IMG/VR virus record: IMGVR_UViG_3300020470_003684
Span: 1 to 23,946 of that record
Direction: 5' to 3' (one strand)
DNA: 23,946 bases
Source of the DNA: a virus
Shown here: piece after piece, positions 2,408-23,946 of the stretch
How the letters are laid out: every line of letters begins with the position of its first letter
How positions within the stretch are numbered: the first letter of the stretch is position 1
Notes under the pieces: model-generated
What the model was told of the DNA's origin: nothing
Databases searched by the model: none
Seen by the model: the letters and a program-made list of their open reading frames with translations, nothing else
Made by a program: the position numbers and the translations under genes

Positions 2408-4336
2408 ATGGCAACAGGTATTAGTAAAGAAGTAAAATATTTAAATAAGGATTTTGCTTCTTTTAGAGACAATTTAATAGATTTTGCTCAAACTTATTTT
2501 CCAAATACATATAACGATTTTAATGAAGCATCACCTGGTATGATGTTTATAGAAATGGCATCTTATGTTGGTGATGTTTTATCTTATTATATAGATGAAC
2601 AATTTAAAGAAAGTTTGTTAGCATTTGCAGAAGAAAAGAAAACAATATATGAAATAGCACAAGGGTATGGATATAAACCAAGACAATCATCTGCATCTTC
2701 AGTCGTACTTGATGTATTTCAAACTGTGCCAGCTGATCCTAATAATGTTATAGATGAAAAAAGACAACCAAATGAACAATATTGTCTTACAATACCAGCT
2801 GGAATGCAGGCTACATCAGTAAATGGAACTGTTTTTAGGACAACAACTGATGTAGTATTTAGTGATTCCAGTTCATTAAGTCCAAGACAGGAAGATATAT
2901 TTGAAGTAGATGATGAAAGTAGAATTACAAAATGGTTGTTAAAAAAACAAGTAAGGGCAGTTAGTGGTAATGTTATTACAGAACAAATAACTTGTGGTGC
3001 AGCAGAAAAGTATAAAAGGATTGTACTCGAAAGAACTCCAATTTTAGAAATAATTTCTGTTACGGATAGTGAGAATAACAAATGGTATGAAGTTCCTTTT
3101 TTAGCACAAGATACGGTATTTGCAGATTTTCAAAATACTGAAAAAAATTCTCCTGATTTGGTAGAGGGTAGAAATTTTGCACCATTCTTATTAAAACTTA
3201 TAAAGACACCAAGAAGATTTACAACTTATATTAGACCTGATGGTAAGATGGAATTAAGATTTGGTTCTGGAGTATCTTCGAATTCTGATGAGGAAATTAT
3301 TCCAAATCCAACTAATGTAGGTTCAAATTTACCAGGAACTCCAACTTATCTTGACACATCTTTTGATCCAACAAATTTTTTAAATACTGCAACATATGGT
3401 GAGTCACCAAGAAATACTACATTAACTATAAAATATGCATTTGGTGGGGGTGTTAATGATAACACTACTGCCAATAGTATAACTAATGTTACAAATACTA
3501 ATGGATTTGATTTTGATGATTCGTATAATTTAGATAGTAATTTACAAACCATTACAAAGAGTTCTTTGGGAGTGAATAATCCCGAACCAGCAATTGGTGG
3601 TAGTGGTGAAGAAACACTTGAAAATATTAGAGTAAATGCAGCAGCTTATTTTCAAGCACAAAGTAGAGCAGTAACTAAAGATGATTATATAACTCGTGTA
3701 TATTCATTACCTGCAAAATATGGTAATATAGCAAAGGTATATATGATACAAGATGAACAAGTTGCAGCAGCAGGACAGAATGAATCGGACCCAACATTCC
3801 AACCTAATCCATTGGCACTAAATATGTATTGTTTGGGATATGACCAAAATAAACAATTAATTAGATTAAATAATGCAGTTAAGGAAAATATAAAATTATA
3901 TTTGAATCAATATAGACTAATGACAGACGCTGTACAGATTAAAGATGCTTGGATATGTAATGTTGGTATTGATTTTGCAATTTTTACTAAGAGAGGGTTT
4001 AACAAAAATGAAGTACTATTAAATTGTGTTACTCGACTTAAACAATATTTTAATGTGGAAAGGTGGCAAATAAATCAACCTATAATTCTCGTTGATGTTG
4101 CAGCAGAATTATTAAATATAGAAGGAGTTGCTAGTGTTGTTAAACCACAAGAGGGTAGAGATGAATTAATTGTTGTTACTAATAAATGGGGAGCTTCTAA
4201 GGGATATTCTAATAACATATATGATATTAGAGCAGCAACTTTTAATGGAGTTGTATATCCACCTGTAGATCCTACAATATTTGAAATTAAAACACCGAAT
4301 AGTGATATTCGTGGTAGAGTCTTGGGAGATATTTAA
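2408..4336 (+). CDS. Baseplate wedge protein, gp6-like (J-like)
   Basis: 642 residues, close to the roughly 660 of T4 gp6. The start has GGAG upstream (2397-2400). The N-terminus carries the recognisable gp6 pattern: KYLNKDFASFRDNLIDFA, then FNEASPGMMFIEMASYVGD and LSYYIDEQ. The middle contains a beta-rich region and ETLENIRVNAAAYFQAQSRA followed by VTKDDYITRV, typical of baseplate J-like proteins, where this segment starts the core domain. In contractile tails two copies of this protein per wedge form the iris that opens on sheath contraction. The stop overlaps the next start by one base (TAATG at 4334-4338), so translation is probably coupled. The family call is secure. Confidence 0.93.
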   Translation: MATGISKEVKYLNKDFASFRDNLIDFAQTYFPNTYNDFNEASPGMMFIEMASYVGDVLSYYIDEQFKESLLAFAEEKKTIYEIAQGYGYKPRQSSASSVVLDVFQTVPADPNNVIDEKRQPNEQYCLTIPAGMQATSVNGTVFRTTTDVVFSDSSSLSPRQEDIFEVDDESRITKWLLKKQVRAVSGNVITEQITCGAAEKYKRIVLERTPILEIISVTDSENNKWYEVPFLAQDTVFADFQNTEKNSPDLVEGRNFAPFLLKLIKTPRRFTTYIRPDGKMELRFGSGVSSNSDEEIIPNPTNVGSNLPGTPTYLDTSFDPTNFLNTATYGESPRNTTLTIKYAFGGGVNDNTTANSITNVTNTNGFDFDDSYNLDSNLQTITKSSLGVNNPEPAIGGSGEETLENIRVNAAAYFQAQSRAVTKDDYITRVYSLPAKYGNIAKVYMIQDEQVAAAGQNESDPTFQPNPLALNMYCLGYDQNKQLIRLNNAVKENIKLYLNQYRLMTDAVQIKDAWICNVGIDFAIFTKRGFNKNEVLLNCVTRLKQYFNVERWQINQPIILVDVAAELLNIEGVASVVKPQEGRDELIVVTNKWGASKGYSNNIYDIRAATFNGVVYPPVDPTIFEIKTPNSDIRGRVLGDI

Positions 4337-15589: not shown

Positions 15590-15600
15590 ATATTTATAAG
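15590..15600. promoter_or_regulatory. Recurrent intergenic ATATTTAT element (1 of 4)
   Basis: ATATTTATAAG lies in the 112-base gap before the modular-protein cluster, 83 bases upstream of its first start codon. The complementary strand reads TATAAATA, the T4-type late promoter core, but that would point away from the downstream gene. The gap holds no coding sequence and no clear terminator hairpin. Confidence 0.5.
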
Positions 15601-15672: not shown

Positions 15673-16584
15673 ATGGGATATTTAAACAATACAAGCCGAG
15701 TCTTGGACGCCATTTTGACAAAAAAAGGTCGTGAGATTTTGTCAAGTGGGGGAGACTTTGAAGTTACTAAGTTTGCACTTGGTGATGACGAAATAGATTA
15801 CGCTTTATGGGACACGACACACACAAAAGGAACAGATTATTATGGTGCAGTGATTGATAATTTACCAGCACTTGAACCATTTAACGATCCTTCCGAGATT
15901 ATGAAGTATAAACTTGTATCTCGTACAGATGGTGTTCGTGCAATGGCGAAATTAATAGAAAATCCAGGTACACAGACTGCATTAAATAATTTAAAATGGT
16001 ATGAAGATGATGTTTCAGGAGATGGTGGAACACGAGTTCAAATGGGACAAACATCATACTATGTTGGTGTTGGAACACAATTTGGTGTCGGTCATGTTAA
16101 TAATGGAGACCTTACAGTTGATTACAATGGTGGAGATGAATCTATCTTTGCAGAAGGATATAAGGGTGAAGAATATACTATAACCGTGTTAGATACTACG
16201 GTTGCAGTATTGGCACCTTTGTATAGGTCAGTAGATGGTAGAGATTATCCAGTAATTGCTATGGGTGGTGGTGGAATGAGAACCAGTGATAGACAAAAAT
16301 GGGTCCCATTCGTAAAATCTGTACAACACCTTTCACAAACAATAAAGGGATGTAAAATTGATAGTGGTGGAGTTTTCAGACATCGCAGAGGTAATAGATT
16401 TGCACCAGCTTTAAATGGAGCATTGGCACTTTATCCAAAGAAAATTTCATCTGCATCATCACCAGCAAAAACTTCTTTAATTATTTCTGGTGAATCATCA
16501 GGAGCAGTTTTAGAGTTTGATGTAACTATTACACATAGAGCTACAGGTACAAGACCAGCTGACGACGCTACATCTGCATCATAA
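15673..16584 (+). CDS. Modular structural-type protein, founder member of a local paralogous family
   Basis: 303 residues; ATG with AGGAG upstream (15660-15664). The N-terminal domain (1 to about 85) is shared with the next three genes: MGYLNNTSRVLDAILTKKGRE, then F-x-(V/I)-TKFALGDDEIDYALWD and a segment ending in EIMKYKLV. The middle (about 90-250) is unique, Gly-rich and beta-like. The C-terminal domain (about 245-286) has KTSLIISGESSGAVLEFDV, shared with the genes at 16603 and 18646. The N-terminal pattern resembles hypothetical structural proteins I associate with marine myoviruses, but I cannot name a function. There is no signal peptide, membrane segment or catalytic motif. It is the first gene after the giant tail gene and probably starts a transcription unit, given the upstream gap. 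A tail, baseplate or capsid decoration role is inferred from context. Confidence 0.75.
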   Translation: MGYLNNTSRVLDAILTKKGREILSSGGDFEVTKFALGDDEIDYALWDTTHTKGTDYYGAVIDNLPALEPFNDPSEIMKYKLVSRTDGVRAMAKLIENPGTQTALNNLKWYEDDVSGDGGTRVQMGQTSYYVGVGTQFGVGHVNNGDLTVDYNGGDESIFAEGYKGEEYTITVLDTTVAVLAPLYRSVDGRDYPVIAMGGGGMRTSDRQKWVPFVKSVQHLSQTIKGCKIDSGGVFRHRRGNRFAPALNGALALYPKKISSASSPAKTSLIISGESSGAVLEFDVTITHRATGTRPADDATSAS

Positions 16585-16602
16585 TAGATAAAGGGAGTCC
16601 TC

Positions 16603-17295
16603 ATGGGATTTATTAACAATACAGCGTATATTTTAAATGCAGTGTTGACCAAGAAAGGTAGGGAATATCTTGCAAAAAGTAGTGGGAATTTTAATATAAC
16701 TAAATTCGCATTGGCTGACGATGAGATAGATTATACCTTATGGGATACAGCACATCCAAAAGGAACGGATTATTATGGGGCCGTCTTAGAGTCCACTCCT
16801 ATGTTAGAACCTTGTGTTGATCCAGAAGTGGTGATGAAATACAAGTTAATTGACCTTCCAATTGGAACAAAGGCTTTGCCTTATATTGAAAATATAACAC
16901 AAATTATTGGTGATAATAAATTAAAATCTATAATAAATGATGATGGTTGGGTTTTAACAGATGCAGCATTAAATCCAACAACTGTTGGAGCAGATAGTGC
17001 ATTTACTAATGAAGATTATAGTTATTTGGTATTAAATAATAATGTAATTGATATTAGAGTTGGGGCAATAAACCCAACAACAGCACCTACCTTTAATGAT
17101 TTACCAGAAACAGGAGCAGTTTATGGTGAGGAAACGGGTAGAACAAGTAAAAAAGTATTGGGTAGAGTTGTTACTATTAGAGCAAGACAAATGACATCTA
17201 ACAGAGAAACATCTATCGTTGTGACTGGCCAGATGTCAGGAGCAATTTATGTTCTTAGGGTACAAGTTGGGTATGATGACCAAAGGACAACATAG
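16603..17295 (+). CDS. Modular structural-type protein, second family member
   Basis: 230 residues; ATG with GGGAG upstream. It is closely related to the preceding gene over the N-terminal domain: MGFINNTAYILNAVLTKKGRE, then NITKFALADDEIDYTLWD and KGTDYYGAVLE. It has a shorter middle region and a matching C-terminal domain (about 180-222) with KKVLGRVVTIRARQM and TSIVVTGQMSGAIYVLRV. This gives the simplest complete N-middle-C architecture in the cluster and is the best reference for judging the incomplete copies downstream. The stop is two bases before the next ATG. Tandem duplication followed by divergence is the straightforward reading. Function is not recognised; a virion accessory role is inferred from neighbours. 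Confidence 0.75.
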   Translation: MGFINNTAYILNAVLTKKGREYLAKSSGNFNITKFALADDEIDYTLWDTAHPKGTDYYGAVLESTPMLEPCVDPEVVMKYKLIDLPIGTKALPYIENITQIIGDNKLKSIINDDGWVLTDAALNPTTVGADSAFTNEDYSYLVLNNNVIDIRVGAINPTTAPTFNDLPETGAVYGEETGRTSKKVLGRVVTIRARQMTSNRETSIVVTGQMSGAIYVLRVQVGYDDQRTT

Positions 17296-17297
17296 TC

Positions 17298-17726
17298 ATG
17301 GGATACATAGATAAGACTACTCTAACACTTGACGCAATACTTACTAATAAAGGGAGAGATTATTTAAGAAAAGCAGTATTTGGTGAAAATAAAAATGGTG
17401 AGCATGTAATTACTAAATTTGCATTATCAGATGATGAAGTTGATTATGGATTATGGGATACAACACCAAGTGGTTCAAATTTTGCAAAACCACTCGGACA
17501 AGTCATTGACAATATGCCAGTAATAGAACCGATTGTTACTGATAATGAGATTATGACATATTTTTTGTTTAAAGATGGTATAGAGTTCACAACTGAACCT
17601 GAAGTGGCAGATAATAATCCACCATATTCAAATTTTTCAATGAAGGTTAGACCAGAAAAGAAAGAAAAGAAGGGAAAGAAAGGGAAGTCACCATTTAGTT
17701 TATTTAAGAAGGGATATCAATTCTAA
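17298..17726 (+). CDS. N-domain-only family member with a basic C-terminal tail
   Basis: 142 residues. AGGA at 17284-17287, inside the end of the previous gene, can serve the ATG at 17298. Residues 1-95 are the family N-terminal domain (ILTNKGRDYL, then VITKFALSDDEVDYGLWD and NEIMTYFLF), with a short insertion near residue 30. After it comes NNPPYSNFSMKV, which resembles the first strand of a PKD domain, and then a strongly basic tail (EKKEKKGKKGK) ending in KKGYQF. The shared C-terminal domain is absent, so this is shorter than the two genes before it. It may be a free-standing N-domain protein or the remnant of a longer one. The stop overlaps the next start (TAATG at 17724-17728). Confidence 0.7.
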   Translation: MGYIDKTTLTLDAILTNKGRDYLRKAVFGENKNGEHVITKFALSDDEVDYGLWDTTPSGSNFAKPLGQVIDNMPVIEPIVTDNEIMTYFLFKDGIEFTTEPEVADNNPPYSNFSMKVRPEKKEKKGKKGKSPFSLFKKGYQF

Positions 17727-18286
17727 TGGGATATTTAAATAAAACTATACAAAGTGTAACTGCACATTTTACCAAAAGGGGTAGAGAAATTTTAGCAAAT
17801 GCTTTATCAGGGGATACAAGCGGTGATTATATAATTACACAATTTGCATTAGGTGATGATGAAATAGATTATGGTTTATGGGATGAAACCCAACCAGAAA
17901 ATTTACAAGGAAGAATTTTAGAGAATATGCCTGTAATTGAATCATTTGTGAATCAAAAAGAAATTATGAATTCTTTTATAATGGTTGAAACACCACCGAT
18001 TCCATATGGTTCATCAATTTCCAATGTACAAACTGCATTAGAATTTGATGGAGTTGATCAAATTATTGAGATTATTCCTAATACAGAAAATCATGGGGAA
18101 TCTGAAGAATATGAATTTTTTCTTGAACACGATAATATAGTTGAGATGACCAATCCATATACTGTACCGACATCAAATTTTAGTATGTCAATAGGAGAGG
18201 GAGATGCACCTATTACAGATTTTATTATGAGTATTATAACAGGTGGGGGAACACCACCAGTTGCTAATTTTAGTATGAATTTATAA
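17726..18286 (+). CDS. N-domain family member ending in repeated PKD-strand-like segments
   Basis: 186 residues, start overlapping the previous stop. Residues 1-90 are the family N-terminal domain (HFTKRGREIL, then IITQFALGDDEIDYGLWD and KEIMNSFIM). From about 148 to the end are three short similar segments: SNFSMSI, TDFIMSI and ANFSMNL. They are about 15-16 residues apart, with APIT and TPPV before the last two. PPVANFS is the usual opening strand of a PKD domain. The protein stops right there, and the next gene begins with the rest of a PKD domain in another frame. The C-terminal family domain is missing. This looks like the front part of a once longer N-PKD-C protein, or a set of parts made separately. 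Confidence 0.7.
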   Translation: MGYLNKTIQSVTAHFTKRGREILANALSGDTSGDYIITQFALGDDEIDYGLWDETQPENLQGRILENMPVIESFVNQKEIMNSFIMVETPPIPYGSSISNVQTALEFDGVDQIIEIIPNTENHGESEEYEFFLEHDNIVEMTNPYTVPTSNFSMSIGEGDAPITDFIMSIITGGGTPPVANFSMNL

Positions 18287-18296
18287 GGAGTTTATA

Positions 18297-18635
18297 ATGG
18301 CAATTTCAGGAAATATACCACTAACAGTAGAATTTACAAATACTTCTACAGGTGATAATTTAACATATTTGTGGGATTTTGGTGATGGAAATACAAGTAC
18401 TCAACAAAACCCAAGTCATGAATATGTAGTTGCTGGAAACTATACTGTGACATTGACAACCACTAACAATTATGGTAGTGATGTTAAAACAGATACCGTT
18501 TCTGCAACATCAGCAGCAGATAAACAAGGTGATGGAAAATTTGATTCACCAAAGGATCTAATAAGTGATATTGAAGGTATGGATGTGAAATCAGATGGTA
18601 AAGAAGGTGATGGCGTCTTGAGTTTGGTAAAATAG
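18297..18635 (+). CDS. PKD (Ig-like) domain protein lacking the first strand
   Basis: 112 residues; ATG with AGGAG (18286-18290) seven bases upstream. Residues 3-70 are a textbook PKD domain from its second strand on: SGNIPLTVEFTNTS, YLWDFGDGNTS (24-34), NPSHEYVVAGNYTVTLT and NNYGSDV. The first strand, normally PxANFS, is absent here but present at the end of the gene immediately upstream. The remainder is an acidic Gly/Asp/Lys linker ending in GVLSLVK. PKD domains are extracellular Ig-like folds for protein or carbohydrate interactions and occur on phage surfaces. The clean ribosome binding site suggests it is translated. It may fold only together with the upstream product, or may be a broken part of a fused gene. 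Confidence 0.75.
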   Translation: MAISGNIPLTVEFTNTSTGDNLTYLWDFGDGNTSTQQNPSHEYVVAGNYTVTLTTTNNYGSDVKTDTVSATSAADKQGDGKFDSPKDLISDIEGMDVKSDGKEGDGVLSLVK

Positions 18636-19051: not shown

Positions 19052-20116
19052 ATGGCAAGCAATTTCTTCACAGATATAACTGAAGAAGATAAACGAACTA
19101 ATGTACTAAGTACTATCTCATCACCTGTATGGTCAGATGGAGAGGCAACTTTAAGTTCCTTTTATACTGGTTCTACTCAGAGTGGAAGTAGTGGTGACTA
19201 TTATTATGATATATATAATAAAGTAGGAAGTGATAGTACAAGAGCAGTTCAGTTCTCAGTAGCCTATGGACATATAGAAGGTAGTGGTTCTAAAACTACT
19301 AATGCTGGAAATAATCCATCAAAGGCAGTTTATCGACAATTCAGAAATATTTGTATAAAAAACGCATCGAGTGAAACTCGATTTAATTTTAACGCAAATG
19401 GTGACGGAACAACTTATAATGCAAAAGATGTTTTCGTAATTAACATAAACAGAGCACGATACAGAGAAAAGTTAGATCCAGGTAACTGGGAACTTTGGAT
19501 TAGTGGTAGTCATGGAAACCTGATAAAGCTAATTGATGATAGTGGTGCAACTTCTGATTCATCAGTAAAGTCATCACAGAGAGTATTCAATGTTGTTTCT
19601 GGATCAATCCAAAATGGTACTTCTGATATCAAAACTACAGCTGTAGCACAATCAGCAACCAATGGTTCATTTGGGTATGTATATCCAGAACTTGGTGTTA
19701 TTGTGTTAAATGCACAACAAGTTTCTGCATCTGCAGCAAGTGGTGTAACAGGAACTACCAGTGGTATTAATTTAACTCGTTCAAGTGCAACTAATGATAA
19801 TACTTCGTATGAATTAGTAAATGCTATAGTGGGTGGTGGTAAGTTCCAAGCTCGTAGAGAAGAACAGATTAAATCATCTCATTATTTTTGTAGAGTAAAA
19901 TCTGACCAGTACAATTATAGTCAGAATCCAACCTATTATACGGGATCAAACGCAGAATTGAAAAATTCTACTTTTGTTCAAGATCCAAAATCGTATATAA
20001 CTACGGTTGGACTTTATAATAATAAGAATGAATTATTGGCTGTGGCTAAACTAAGTCAACCATTATTAAAGTCTAAAGATAGAGAAGCTGTAATTAAAGT
20101 TCGATTAGACTTTTAG
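19052..20116 (+). CDS. Phage structural protein, first of three related genes
   Basis: 354 residues; ATG with AAGGAG upstream. The protein is beta-rich, Ser/Gly/Thr-rich and lacks Cys-rich or membrane segments apart from single Cys residues. Landmarks: DITEEDKRTNVLSTISSPVWSD at the N-terminus, FYTGSTQSG, the strongly conserved RARYREKLDPGNWEL (about 135-150), LIKLIDDSGAT, a YPELGVIVLN strand, RREEQIKSSHYFCR, NPTYYTGSNAEL, and the C-terminal TTVGLYNNKNELLAVAKLSQP with a final VRLDF. The gene at 20133 is a full-length paralogue. I associate this C-terminal signature with conserved virion structural proteins of marine T4-like phages, but an exact role (tail, neck or baseplate) is not visible. 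Confidence 0.78.
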   Translation: MASNFFTDITEEDKRTNVLSTISSPVWSDGEATLSSFYTGSTQSGSSGDYYYDIYNKVGSDSTRAVQFSVAYGHIEGSGSKTTNAGNNPSKAVYRQFRNICIKNASSETRFNFNANGDGTTYNAKDVFVININRARYREKLDPGNWELWISGSHGNLIKLIDDSGATSDSSVKSSQRVFNVVSGSIQNGTSDIKTTAVAQSATNGSFGYVYPELGVIVLNAQQVSASAASGVTGTTSGINLTRSSATNDNTSYELVNAIVGGGKFQARREEQIKSSHYFCRVKSDQYNYSQNPTYYTGSNAELKNSTFVQDPKSYITTVGLYNNKNELLAVAKLSQPLLKSKDREAVIKVRLDF

Positions 20117-20132
20117 GAAAAGGAGAACCTAA

Positions 20133-21173
20133 ATGTCGTTTAAAGTTTTTGCAGACGAGGACAAGTTAGAAAATGTAGTTAGTACCATAGCCGAACGCAT
20201 GTGGTCTGATGATACAAGTACCTTAACTACATTTTATACTGGATCTACACAAGAATCTAATAGTGGTAAATACTACTATGATGTCCGTAAGGATGATGAC
20301 CAAACAAAAGATGTGCAGTTTGCTGTAACTTATGGTCATGTTAATGGTTCTGGTTCAGAAGGTTCAACGGCTACAGGGGCTACAAATCCAACTAAGGCTA
20401 TCTATTCACAATTAAGACAAGTTTTATTACCAGCACAAGTTAATAGATTTAATTTTCATGGAGATTCAGGAACTAATTACTATAGCGATGATGTTTTTGC
20501 CATTGTTTGTAACAGAGCTCGTTATAGAGAAAAAATGGATCCTGGTAATTGGGAATTACATTTAACAAGTGGAAGTAATACTGTAAAATTAATTGACGAT
20601 AGTGGAGCTACAGCAGATCCAACAATTGGTGCATCTAAACGAGAGTTTAATGTAGTTAGTGGTTCGATAGATAATGGTGTATACGAAACTGCAGCAGCCG
20701 CAGCAGCATCAACCACATCTGGTTCATATGGTTTATTTTATCCAGAAATGGGTATGATTGTTTTAAATCCAAGTGCAGTAGCATCTGGATCTGGACATAA
20801 CATTGGAGTACGAGGTGTTGTTGAACCACTTGGAACGAGTACGAGTACTAATGATTATAATCACAAAAAAATACACAATTCAATAAAGGCAGGTTCTTAT
20901 TTTTCTGCTAGAAGAGAAGAAGCAAAAAGAAGTTCATTTTATTTTTGTAGAATTCCTAATAATCAGTTTAATCATAGTCAAAATCCGTCTTATTTTACTG
21001 GTTCAAATGCAGAATTAGTAAATAATGATTTTGTTCGTGAACCACTAGCTTATATATCAACCGTAGGTTTGTACAACGATAAAAATGAATTATTGGCAGT
21101 TGCAAAAATGTCAATTCCATTTAAGAAAGATCCAAATACGGAAGCACTTATCAAAGTTAGACTTGATTATTAG
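20133..21173 (+). CDS. Phage structural protein, second of three related genes
   Basis: 346 residues; ATG with AAAGGAG upstream, 16 bases after the previous stop. It aligns end to end with the preceding protein: EDKLENVVSTIAERMWSDDTSTLTTFYTGSTQ in outline, RARYREKMDPGNWEL, VKLIDDSGAT, YPEMGMIVLN, RREEAKRSSFYFCR, NPSYFTGSNAEL, and a final STVGLYNDKNELLAVAKMS with VRLDY. An Ala-rich stretch (ETAAAAAAS) replaces part of the middle. The high similarity of motif regions, with a variable middle, fits tandem duplication. The two products may form a heteromer or occupy different virion sites; this is inference. No enzymatic motif is seen. Confidence 0.78.
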   Translation: MSFKVFADEDKLENVVSTIAERMWSDDTSTLTTFYTGSTQESNSGKYYYDVRKDDDQTKDVQFAVTYGHVNGSGSEGSTATGATNPTKAIYSQLRQVLLPAQVNRFNFHGDSGTNYYSDDVFAIVCNRARYREKMDPGNWELHLTSGSNTVKLIDDSGATADPTIGASKREFNVVSGSIDNGVYETAAAAAASTTSGSYGLFYPEMGMIVLNPSAVASGSGHNIGVRGVVEPLGTSTSTNDYNHKKIHNSIKAGSYFSARREEAKRSSFYFCRIPNNQFNHSQNPSYFTGSNAELVNNDFVREPLAYISTVGLYNDKNELLAVAKMSIPFKKDPNTEALIKVRLDY

Positions 21174-21184
21174 AGGAGATTCCA

Positions 21185-22360
21185 ATGTATAAGGATATAT
21201 CTCCCGATGATAAATCAATAACACCTTTTAAAACCTATAAAAAATTCACTTTTACTAACGCTGATAGTGGTAGTGGAGTGTATGGTTTAGAAGGTATAAG
21301 TGGAAGTTTTCATAACTTTATTCCACCAAGTGGTTCTACAAGAGGAGCATCAGCTTCCCAAAGTTATGGTGCATACAATGAACAATCACAGAGTCAAGGA
21401 AAACATTGGAATACCTGGTATAGTGATGGAACTTTTTTCAAAGTACCACTATATTATGAAATTAGAAATTTGTATTACCGATATGACCAACCTAATAATC
21501 CAAAGGCAAACAATACAAGATATCCTATTTATGCTGGTGGTAACTGGAGTAGAAAGTGGCCACACGGTAGAGAAGAGGCTGATTGGGGTAATATAAATCC
21601 TCGTAAACTTGAGGGTAAAGTAAATGTCATAACAATTCCACAACAATATTTTGGTGAGGAGATAAAACCAGGTTCAATTAGAATATTAGATGATAGTTGG
21701 TCTGAGACAATAGATTTAAGAGATGACGGACACGGACAACTTTATGATTATAAATATTCATCAAGTTTTGCAGCAGGAACACCATCAGGAACACCATTAT
21801 CTGGAAGTGTTATAGGTAATGTATTTTATGAACACGGAATTATAACAATTACTGATACTGGTTCTGCATATATATCTTGTAGTCTTGGTGATGGTACATT
21901 ACCAAGTGGACAATATGCTGGTAGTGATGGATTTGAAATAGAATTTCAAGCAACAAAAACTTCTTATGAGTATGAATATCTATGTAATGTAGAAGAATAT
22001 CAACTTACAGGTACTACAAATCCAAGTGTAGTTGTCGGTAGAAGTGGTAGTGTTATTATACCAGAAGGTGCAAAATATATTTATGATGGATATATAAATG
22101 ATTTTACTGGAGGGAAACCAAATTATCAGAGTACATTTGATTTAGTATTGCCACCAGCCAGTGGTTCGTCTTACAAAACAAAATATGTGTCAGGAAAAGA
22201 ATATCAAAATTTCACAACTCATTCTGAGTTTGGTACATATGTTACTAATATAGGTCTTTATAATGATGAAAGAGAGTTATTGGCAATAGCAAAATTATCT
22301 AAACCTATAAAAAACGATAAAGATTTACCACTTTCATTTTTAGTACGATTTGACTCGTAA
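21185..22360 (+). CDS. Phage structural protein, third and most diverged family member
   Basis: 391 residues; ATG with GAGGAG upstream. The N-terminal half differs from its two neighbours (KDISPDDKSITPFKTYKKF, GVYGLEGISGSFHNF, and a Trp/Tyr-rich stretch with WNTWYSDGTFFK and YAGGNWSRKWPHGRE). From about residue 140 it follows the same plan: IKPGSIRILDDS matches the DPGNWEL-LIDDSG region, NVFYEHGIITI matches YPELGVIVLN, and the end FGTYVTNIGLYNDERELLAIAKLSKP with VRFDS matches the shared C-terminus. It closes the transcription unit that began before 19052 and is followed by a 60-base AT-rich gap. It is probably a virion structural protein; the exact location is unknown. Confidence 0.75.
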   Translation: MYKDISPDDKSITPFKTYKKFTFTNADSGSGVYGLEGISGSFHNFIPPSGSTRGASASQSYGAYNEQSQSQGKHWNTWYSDGTFFKVPLYYEIRNLYYRYDQPNNPKANNTRYPIYAGGNWSRKWPHGREEADWGNINPRKLEGKVNVITIPQQYFGEEIKPGSIRILDDSWSETIDLRDDGHGQLYDYKYSSSFAAGTPSGTPLSGSVIGNVFYEHGIITITDTGSAYISCSLGDGTLPSGQYAGSDGFEIEFQATKTSYEYEYLCNVEEYQLTGTTNPSVVVGRSGSVIIPEGAKYIYDGYINDFTGGKPNYQSTFDLVLPPASGSSYKTKYVSGKEYQNFTTHSEFGTYVTNIGLYNDERELLAIAKLSKPIKNDKDLPLSFLVRFDS

Positions 22361-22370
22361 TTCTGCTATA

Positions 22371-22399
22371 TATATTATATTTATTAGTGTAATAATATA
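22371..22399. other. Weak AT-only inverted repeat in the gap before the MscS-like gene
   Basis: TATATTAT at 22371-22378 pairs with ATAATATA at 22392-22399 across a 13-base loop. All eight pairs are A-T and no T-run follows, so it is a poor terminator. It overlaps the ATATTTAT element and may simply reflect base composition. Confidence 0.3.
22377..22387. promoter_or_regulatory. Recurrent intergenic ATATTTAT element (3 of 4)
   Basis: ATATTTATTAG lies 44 bases upstream of the GTG start of the MscS-like gene. Its complement reads AATAAATA, one base from the T4 late core. It shares the following G with copies 1 and 2. Confidence 0.45.
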
Positions 22400-22420
22400 A
22401 CTTAAAATAGGAGAATACTC

Positions 22421-22768
22421 GTGGACAACCAAGCACAAGGTCTTGTCGAGAGTTTGATAGGACAATATGGTTGGTTATTTCTTGTGGGTGTAATCACACT
22501 CATTTTTCAAAATACCATAAAAGAAGCCGTAGACGGCATAATGGTTTTTTTAGGTAATGATTACAACGAAGATGATGTCGTTGAAGTAGATGGAGCACCT
22601 GGTCGTATAGTGAGAGTAGGGATGTGGAAAACTGTGTTCTTTATTTATCATGTATTAGATGGTAGAGTCGTAGGTGGTTCTAAATTAGTCGTAGCAAATT
22701 CTAAGTTGAAAGACCTAAAAATCGAGAAACCATTACCAAATCTTGATTTATCTAAATATGGAAAATAG
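22421..22768 (+). CDS. Minimal MscS-like membrane protein (one helix plus beta-domain)
   Basis: 115 residues; start is GTG, with AGGAG (22409-22413) seven bases before it and no better start nearby. Residues about 17-44 are a hydrophobic helix (WLFLVGVITLIFQNTIKEAV, then GIMVFLG). Residues 45-103 follow the MscS beta-domain: DYNEDDVVEVDG, APGRIVRVGMWKT, and a Gly-x-Val strand ending in VANSKLKDL. From memory of E. coli MscS, the segment from Gln30 to Thr71 aligns without gaps to the end of pore helix TM3 and the beta-domain, including G-x-x-G-x-(I/V)-x-x-V. In MscS this region forms the pore and the side-portal vestibule. The usual TM1 and TM2 sensor helices and the C-terminal alpha-beta domain are absent (MscS is 286 residues). 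It may form a small oligomeric pore or join host MscS rings; both are inference. Confidence 0.75.
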   Translation: MDNQAQGLVESLIGQYGWLFLVGVITLIFQNTIKEAVDGIMVFLGNDYNEDDVVEVDGAPGRIVRVGMWKTVFFIYHVLDGRVVGGSKLVVANSKLKDLKIEKPLPNLDLSKYGK

Positions 22769-22816: not shown

Positions 22817-23946
22817 ATGAGAAAATTATTAATTGGGATACTCTTGTCAACATCTTTGTTTGGCCAAGATTTCATATTAAACTTTTTTAAATATTCTACA
22901 GCATACGCTAGTTTTAGTTTAAACGCACCAAGACACCAAGATGACAGATTTGCTATCATTGGTGGTCTTAGTACAGGACAATTAGAAGTAGGTAGAACTG
23001 ATAGAGAATTAAAACCAGATTTTCAAAAGTCATTTGGATTGAGAAAAATTGGTAGATTCAATTATGAACCAAAACGGGGTGTCAAGAACGCTGGAAATGG
23101 TGGAACTTGGTATGATGGTTCTGAACAAAATGCTAACGAGAGTGCTACATTTGGACCTGTACAAGGTTGGGAGTATTTGATTAAAAGGTCGGAAGGTCGT
23201 CAATGGGGTAACGAATATCTTAACCAAGAATATTGGGTAAGATATACTGGTGATTGGTTAATGGCTAAAATTGGTTGGACAGAGTTAGGATTGGAAGATA
23301 TTGAATATGGTCAAGGTGAGTTAAGATTTAAATGGACACCACCTATTGTAGATGATAAATTAAATTTAAGTATTGGTGTGAAACACAGACAACATCCTGT
23401 ATATGGATTTGATGCTATGATATTAGATACTACTTGGTATAAAGGACAATGGTGGAATTTTGCTGAAGATGCTTTTGGTATTGATGATAACGCTTGGTTT
23501 ACAGAAGATTATCATTTGAATGGTGACCAAGATATTCAATTATATGAAATAGATCCTGAAACTGGTGAACTTAGAGAAATCGAAGGTGGAGGACCTTTTT
23601 GGAATGATGATGGTAGATTTGTCGGAGTTGATTGGTTATGGAGAGATGAGAATGGAAAAATATTCGCCTATACAGATAGAGAGTATTTCTTATATCACTT
23701 TCCAGGAATGTTAGAAAATTATATTGATGGTGTTAAAAAAGATATAGGATATCAAAGAGAAACTTCAATAGTGTTGGGAGCTGATTTTTATCATTATGAT
23801 GAATATTGGTGGTTACACGCTTGGGGTAACTGGTTACCTTACCACTTTGGACACGATACATATTCATATCACAACGGAGCACATTATCAAACCCATTTGG
23901 AAGAAGGTGGTGAACCTCATAAATTTATGTTTATGGATCCGATGTG
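22817..23946 (+). CDS. Secreted, probably outer-membrane protein (3' end outside window)
   Basis: The frame is open from the ATG at 22817 through the window end, giving at least 376 residues; TGGAG precedes the start. Residues 1-17 are a clear signal peptide: MRKLLIGILLSTSLFGQ, with probable cleavage before DF. The ending FGQ is typical of Bacteroidota and related groups. The mature part is rich in Trp, Tyr, Gly and Asp with alternating strands such as YWVRYTGDWLMAKIGW, ELRFKWTPP and LNLSIGVKHRQ, which suggests an outer-membrane beta-barrel or a periplasmic beta-rich protein. His/Tyr/Trp-rich segments occur near the end (DFYHYDEYWWLHAWGNW). It is not a virion-like protein. It may coat or modify the host surface, for example against superinfection, but this is inference. 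It has the same codon style as its neighbours. The family is not recognised. Confidence 0.7.
   Translation, partial: MRKLLIGILLSTSLFGQDFILNFFKYSTAYASFSLNAPRHQDDRFAIIGGLSTGQLEVGRTDRELKPDFQKSFGLRKIGRFNYEPKRGVKNAGNGGTWYDGSEQNANESATFGPVQGWEYLIKRSEGRQWGNEYLNQEYWVRYTGDWLMAKIGWTELGLEDIEYGQGELRFKWTPPIVDDKLNLSIGVKHRQHPVYGFDAMILDTTWYKGQWWNFAEDAFGIDDNAWFTEDYHLNGDQDIQLYEIDPETGELREIEGGGPFWNDDGRFVGVDWLWRDENGKIFAYTDREYFLYHFPGMLENYIDGVKKDIGYQRETSIVLGADFYHYDEYWWLHAWGNWLPYHFGHDTYSYHNGAHYQTHLEEGGEPHKFMFMDPM

Follow-up and report, generated by a model that had tools for sequence, protein, structure and literature searches.

Short phage proteins resembling the pore helix and beta-domain core of MscS channels

The mechanosensitive channel MscS of Escherichia coli is a homoheptamer of 286-residue subunits. 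The MscS superfamily is defined by homology to approximately 87 residues of this protein, comprising its pore helix and upper vestibule (PMC4560390). Trypanosoma cruzi MscS (TcMscS, 165 residues), which is devoid of the MscS cage, is gated by tension in E. coli spheroplasts (PMC8282336). As regards viruses, MscS homologues of 261 residues are encoded by giant viruses (PMC6163359), and MscL genes are present in coastal tailed phages (Caudoviricetes), where an osmotic role was proposed for them (PMC13288924).

The DNA analysed here, referred to as the window, is a stretch of 23,946 nucleotides of viral origin (IMG/VR record IMGVR_UViG_3300020470_003684). In an original prediction, made from its sequence, one open reading frame (ORF) was proposed to encode a protein that keeps only the pore helix and beta-domain of MscS. 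We know of no described member of the MscS superfamily made of this core alone and, to our knowledge, no known MscS relative is smaller than the phage protein. A literature search, with subscription papers outside its reach, returned no report of a core-only phage MscS.

The ORF occupies positions 22421-22768 (plus strand, like all its features given below), starts with GTG, ends with TAG and codes for 115 amino acids; its length, start codon and coordinates had been predicted exactly. It had also been credited with its own start signals and an upstream element, and both are present. A ribosome-binding site, AGGAG, can be read at 22409-22413, shortly 5' of the GTG codon, and occurs in close relatives as well. 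Further upstream lies a promoter-like element, ATATTTAT (22377-22384), common to intergenic positions 15590, 19023 and 22778; at all four positions it takes the form ATATTTAT(A). ATATTTAT is found in four of the five longer intergenic gaps of the window, a count reached in none of 5000 simulations. For TATATTTAT with one mismatch the whole-window count is not above chance, and only exact ATATTTAT in gaps is exceptional. Among relatives, ATATTTAT precedes the MscS-core gene in 35 of 103 cases. Its recurrence in the long gaps is consistent with a phage promoter, which it likely represents. No Rfam or tRNA features were detected in the window.

The gene was thought to lie at the end of a virion-structure region, and it is indeed preceded by a myovirus baseplate and fibre module. 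Baseplate wedge genes are located upstream at 1830-2369 and 2408-4336. Their nearest cultured relatives belong to Microcystis phage Mel-JY01 (48% identity) and Flavobacterium Immutovirus (40%), the former being matched also by several fibre genes of the window. On the other side, at 22817-23946 (plus strand), follows a gene with a signal-peptide-like start, which is cut by the window end and has no PHROG or Pfam match; in most window-type relatives it adjoins the gene for the MscS core. Tandem paralogous tail genes form two sets, at 15673-18286 and 19052-22360. Four tandem tail paralogues have a common N-terminal MGY/MGF...TKKGRE segment, three fibre-like ones have a common C-terminal segment, and their tandem occurrence suggests duplication for receptor variation. 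The region 18297-18635 resembles, by eye, a PKD domain.

Profile comparison with MscS families had been put forward as a check, and its outcome agrees with the prediction. Pfam MS_channel_2nd matches the window protein with E 8.6e-4 and 19.8 bits over profile positions 1-43 of 68, which is 0.4 bit below the curated cut-off of 20.2 bits. Across the first alignment, E<=1 is reached by 32 of 33 members (best 5.3e-6) and, in a wider set, E 0.1 or better by 40 of 65, while the curated cut-off is passed in six of 30 phage records; podovirus-type members mostly have no match. Since the profile match begins at TM3b, TM3a is assigned from the fold only. When PDB sequences were searched with the family profile, no MscS was retrieved at E<1. 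Alignments made with hhalign to single MscS sequences of E. coli and Pelagibacter are weak (E 0.007 and 0.03, respectively) and were used for register only. Residues 26-71 align without gaps to residues 108-153 of E. coli MscS, a register that would place L27 at the gate residue L109, Q30 at Q112, T32 at S114, G39 at G121, G58 at G140 and G61 at G143; before residue 25 it is uncertain by one residue. At the S114 site, threonine is one of the superfamily consensus residues (PMC4560390).

A sister subfamily occurs at L019:6697-7035 and L190-L197, on contigs of up to 175 kb. I/V-PN is kept at the site of MscS P166-N167 in its eight loci, and in one record profile positions 1-59 of 68 are matched above the cut-off. 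In the main subfamily the asparagine (N93) is invariant and the proline is mostly replaced by Q or A. The sister subfamily bridges the phage family to MscS. Contig L019 contains both MscS-core subfamilies about 350 bases apart, and in L019/L190 the sister-subfamily copy accompanies the main form. Matches to NifZ (best 0.009) fall below the cut-off and were read as barrel resemblance. A PADLOC search (anti-defence) gave no match for the MscS-core protein.

Single-chain AlphaFold2 models were built from alignments of 33 and 65 sequences (mean pLDDT 75 and 80, pTM 0.52 and 0.60, respectively). They predict a helix (residues 2-28), a kink between residues 28 and 30, a second helix (30-45), four strands forming a small beta-barrel (53-56, 59-66, 70-79 and 82-92) and a short helix. 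The first 35-40 rows of PDB fold matches consist entirely of MscS-superfamily chains, with top E values of 1.2e-4 and 1.7e-4 for the two models. Structural alignment gave Z 8.9 over 105 residues (rmsd 5.0) for MscS and Z 8.1 over 90 residues (rmsd 4.2) for TcMscS; these values are moderate, with the tool cautioning that Z under 8 may reflect common arrangement, and the MscS fold was accepted because of element order, the kink and the consistent match list, rather than Z alone.

Residues 12-29 (22454-22507) form, according to model and hydropathy, a hydrophobic membrane-spanning helix equivalent to TM3a. The Ala/Gly packing of TM3a is not seen: Y16, W18, F20 and F29 are bulky, and by column reading small residues tend to occur only at 14, 17, 22 and 23, in the part where the register may be shifted by one. 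Past the kink, residues 30-46 (22508-22558) are predicted from model and register to form an amphipathic helix equivalent to TM3b (hydrophobic moment 1.48, shuffle p 0.03). The Sm-like beta-domain, or upper vestibule, comprises residues 47-92 (22559-22696), as delimited by the modelled strands and by invariant columns, among them D47, D51, D52, R62, R65 and K88. N93, the counterpart of N167 in the PN motif, a short helix and the EKPL domain end make up residues 93-105 (22697-22735). The N-terminus is acidic and positive charges follow the helix. The ORF starts about 12 residues before TM3a and ends after the beta-domain, at the point where the cage of MscS would begin; it encodes neither TM1 nor TM2 nor an alpha/beta cage, and no other MscS part is adjacent. 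The phage protein is little more than the approximately 87-residue core that defines the superfamily. Profile matches, AlphaFold2 fold and PDB matches all indicate homology to this core, and the TM3 kink is accompanied by a hydrophobic residue at the L109 site; both homology and predicted fold as an MscS core are well supported. In its structural part the original prediction was correct: the pore helix and beta-domain are kept, without sensor helices or cage.

IMG/VR contains 94 stretches that encode relatives of the window protein, 80 of which were retrieved; three divergent queries brought the total to 186 loci representing 107 distinct DNA versions. Family members are 110-145 residues long, at least 44% identical to the window member, and carried by many uncultured phages. 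The same short form, which had been suggested as something to look for in related phage genomes, is present in many related contigs. Lack of any MscS hit, a wrong fold and absence from related phages had been named as findings that would speak against the prediction; each was looked for and none was encountered. Values of dN/dS against close relatives are about 0.05-0.2, and the family evolves under purifying selection. In an alignment of 65 members, ten positions never vary (G45, D47, D51, D52, R62, R65, K88, N93, L96 and L105), and L27 is 85% conserved. The helix is less conserved, with mean column entropy of 1.57 bits in its pore half versus 1.06 bits in the beta-domain.

Six family members, used as tblastn queries, found no match among 50,697 records of cultured phages, and profile search found no MscS-core gene in the genomes of Mel-JY01 and Flavobacterium Immutovirus. 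A weak profile match in Mel-JY01 (E 0.006) turned out on inspection to be a protein of another kind. The one match in GTDB genomes (L082) lies in a Pelagibacter MAG, on a contig whose 70% identity to the phage proteins led us to regard it as phage DNA. Cellular origin was considered and rejected, nearly all remaining matches in related genomes being full-size channels. Channels of 237-912 residues matching PF00924 are present in 54 of 61 SAR11-type genomes, and clear PF00924 matches in the 61 lie in frames of this size, save for the phage-like contig and one fragment. In 30 larger phage records PF00924 matches are short ORFs with two exceptions: G024 has a weak match in a frame of 292 residues, and G016 has one in a broken frame.

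The MscS-core gene occurs in at least six neighbour sets, including myovirus-type, podovirus-type and integrase-bearing contigs. Its usual place is among late structural genes, sometimes near endolysins, and most of the larger neighbours share its direction in 89 of 102 loci. Three positions are seen in podovirus-type contigs: one separates terminase from portal, another follows the connector genes and the third comes after a metallophosphoesterase. The search for a gene that always accompanies it was negative (a 73-residue membrane protein occurs in 12 and a Popeye protein in nine of 31 records), so the protein is likely to be a self-sufficient unit. Given its varied neighbours and the lack of a constant partner, the gene behaves like a late-region gene that moves on its own.

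Several neighbours deserve description in their own right. The 73-residue protein (L028:6564-6779 and relatives) has two hydrophobic segments and belongs to no Pfam or PHROG family; about 20 loci have its gene next to that of the MscS core, in one orientation or the other. This conserved two-helix protein is possibly holin-like. The Popeye-domain protein (L007:9494-10147; also records G002, G004-G006, G008-G011 and G014), whose gene adjoins or lies near the MscS-core gene in several phages, combines a three-helix POPDC part (PF04831, E 1.4e-13) with a cyclic-nucleotide-binding domain (E 2e-14) similar to its counterparts in Pycsar effectors. It may counter defence signalling as a sensor of cyclic nucleotides or a sponge for them. 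In podovirus-type contigs, a metallophosphoesterase (PHROG 221) is commonly encoded just 5' of the MscS-core gene (L134:6313-7092 and 29 others). Runs of genes with type IV pilin- or pseudopilin-like N-termini, recognized by eye and with no Pfam match, were noticed at L039:3757-4422 and in L018, L046 and L054.

As to function, we tentatively prefer, at somewhat less than an even chance, a minimal ring channel in the host inner membrane that acts as a late osmolyte valve. The protein would be synthesized late in infection and would probably reside in this membrane with its N-terminus outside and its C-terminus inside, the latter placement being suggested by the charge distribution. It would self-assemble through its beta-domain into an MscS-like ring, as MscS does. 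The helices of this ring would most likely line a small pore through which ions and osmolytes leak, relieving turgor before or around lysis independently of other phage proteins. A channel is favoured by the leucine L27 at the gate site, the kink and the amphipathic TM3b, all of which are kept, and the cage-less TcMscS provides a precedent. Against it speak the absence of the TM1/TM2 tension paddle in a protein with a single spanning helix, the bulky TM3a residues, the conservation of the spanning helix, lower than that of the beta-domain, and the podovirus-type members, most of which miss the Pfam model. An alternative is a non-conducting beta-domain ring, in which the helix would be only a membrane anchor and the conserved, charged beta-domain would bind a partner or block entry of other phages (superinfection exclusion, host envelope-protein control). 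Such a ring would suit the charged invariant residues of the best-conserved part and the variable, bulky helix. Further, in window-type phages a run of envelope-type genes (signal-peptide-like, lipoprotein-like, thioredoxin, Popeye) begins with the MscS-core gene and can be likened to late "moron" blocks of other phages. Retention of the gate-position leucine and the kink, together with the lack of a constant phage partner, makes us regard this explanation as doubtful.

A holin-like or lysis-timing pore acting with a phage endolysin is unlikely in our estimation. The late-region position agrees with it, four loci (L096, L098, L100 and L140) have a GH24 lysozyme or PHROG 465 peptidase as endolysin within a few genes, and small membrane proteins often follow directly 3', one with weak similarity to Rz-spanin (E 2e-4). 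However, the endolysin is more than 10 kb away in contigs L064 and L127, most records have no such link, more classical holin-like small hydrophobic genes sit alongside, and the MscS core is unusually conserved for a holin. A general link to lysis was not adopted, since no T4-lysozyme-type endolysin was found in the 30 larger records. Also envisaged in the original prediction was co-assembly with the MscS of the host. A dominant-negative phage subunit, jamming or re-gating the host rings that it joins, could be imagined from a core that is the same as in host channels and is truncated at a domain border. We consider it very unlikely: identity to MscS in structure alignments is about 13-20%, residues of MscS inter-subunit packing are lost, the pore helix being bulky rather than Ala/Gly-packed, and the family is far more similar to itself than to MscS, as expected for self-assembly. 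Protection of the cell during DNA entry, another proposed role, is opposed by the late genome position, unless the product is a virion protein or acts on later phages. Finally, the resemblance to MscS might be fortuitous, the protein being a small, unrelated membrane protein whose barrel is SH3/Sm-like. The window member falls just under the Pfam cut-off, hhalign to single MscS sequences is weak, and the fold lists contain, further down, Tudor-type and other small barrels. Nevertheless, the alignment takes in helix, kink and barrel at once and in their proper order, more than 30 MscS-family chains head the match list and the sister subfamily carries the PN motif, which renders chance resemblance highly improbable.

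Returning to the preferred minimal channel, a broader proposal is that this core-only phage branch of MscS works as a pore on its own, as a late turgor valve or lysis-timing pore, having spread between unrelated phages of uncultured bacteria as one movable gene; we regard it as possible but rather improbable when taken as a whole. With more than 100 versions, the core-only family allows the sufficiency of TM3 and beta-domain for making, gating or anchoring a pore to be tested. Its existence suggests, moreover, that phages without cultured representatives commonly control the turgor or membrane permeability of their hosts late in infection.

Among known systems, phage MscL is likewise a phage-encoded mechanosensitive channel, but it belongs to an unrelated channel family. 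MscS-like proteins of giant viruses (Aureococcus anophagefferens virus, 261 residues; Sylvanvirus, 651 residues) are virus-encoded and appear among the fold matches; they differ in being longer, in having more transmembrane helices where described and in their eukaryotic hosts. A similar predicted fold is displayed by the short viral BFVD models A0A1B1IQW5 (138 residues), A0A516MLU7 (129 residues) and A0A516LVN0 (104 residues), with Foldseek E values of 9e-10 to 4e-6 and 19-33% identity to the phage protein. Judging from these models, they are possibly family members or sister groups, and others of this kind would thus already have been sequenced, nameless in the tables used. With E. coli MscS the phage protein shares the TM3a-kink-TM3b-beta-domain order, the ungapped register and the leucine at gate position 109. 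Unlike E. coli MscS, it has no TM1, TM2 or alpha/beta cage, its main subfamily has A/Q-N in place of PN, its TM3b is charged, and about four extra residues (GGSK) precede the last strand. TcMscS, too, can be aligned to MscS only in TM3 and the beta-domain and has no MscS-type cage (PMC8282336), and its structures 9bgq and 9bgu align to the phage model with Z 8.1. In contrast to the phage protein, TcMscS is eukaryotic, keeps TM2, and hence two spanning helices, as well as a C-terminal bundle, and is tension-gated (PMC8282336).
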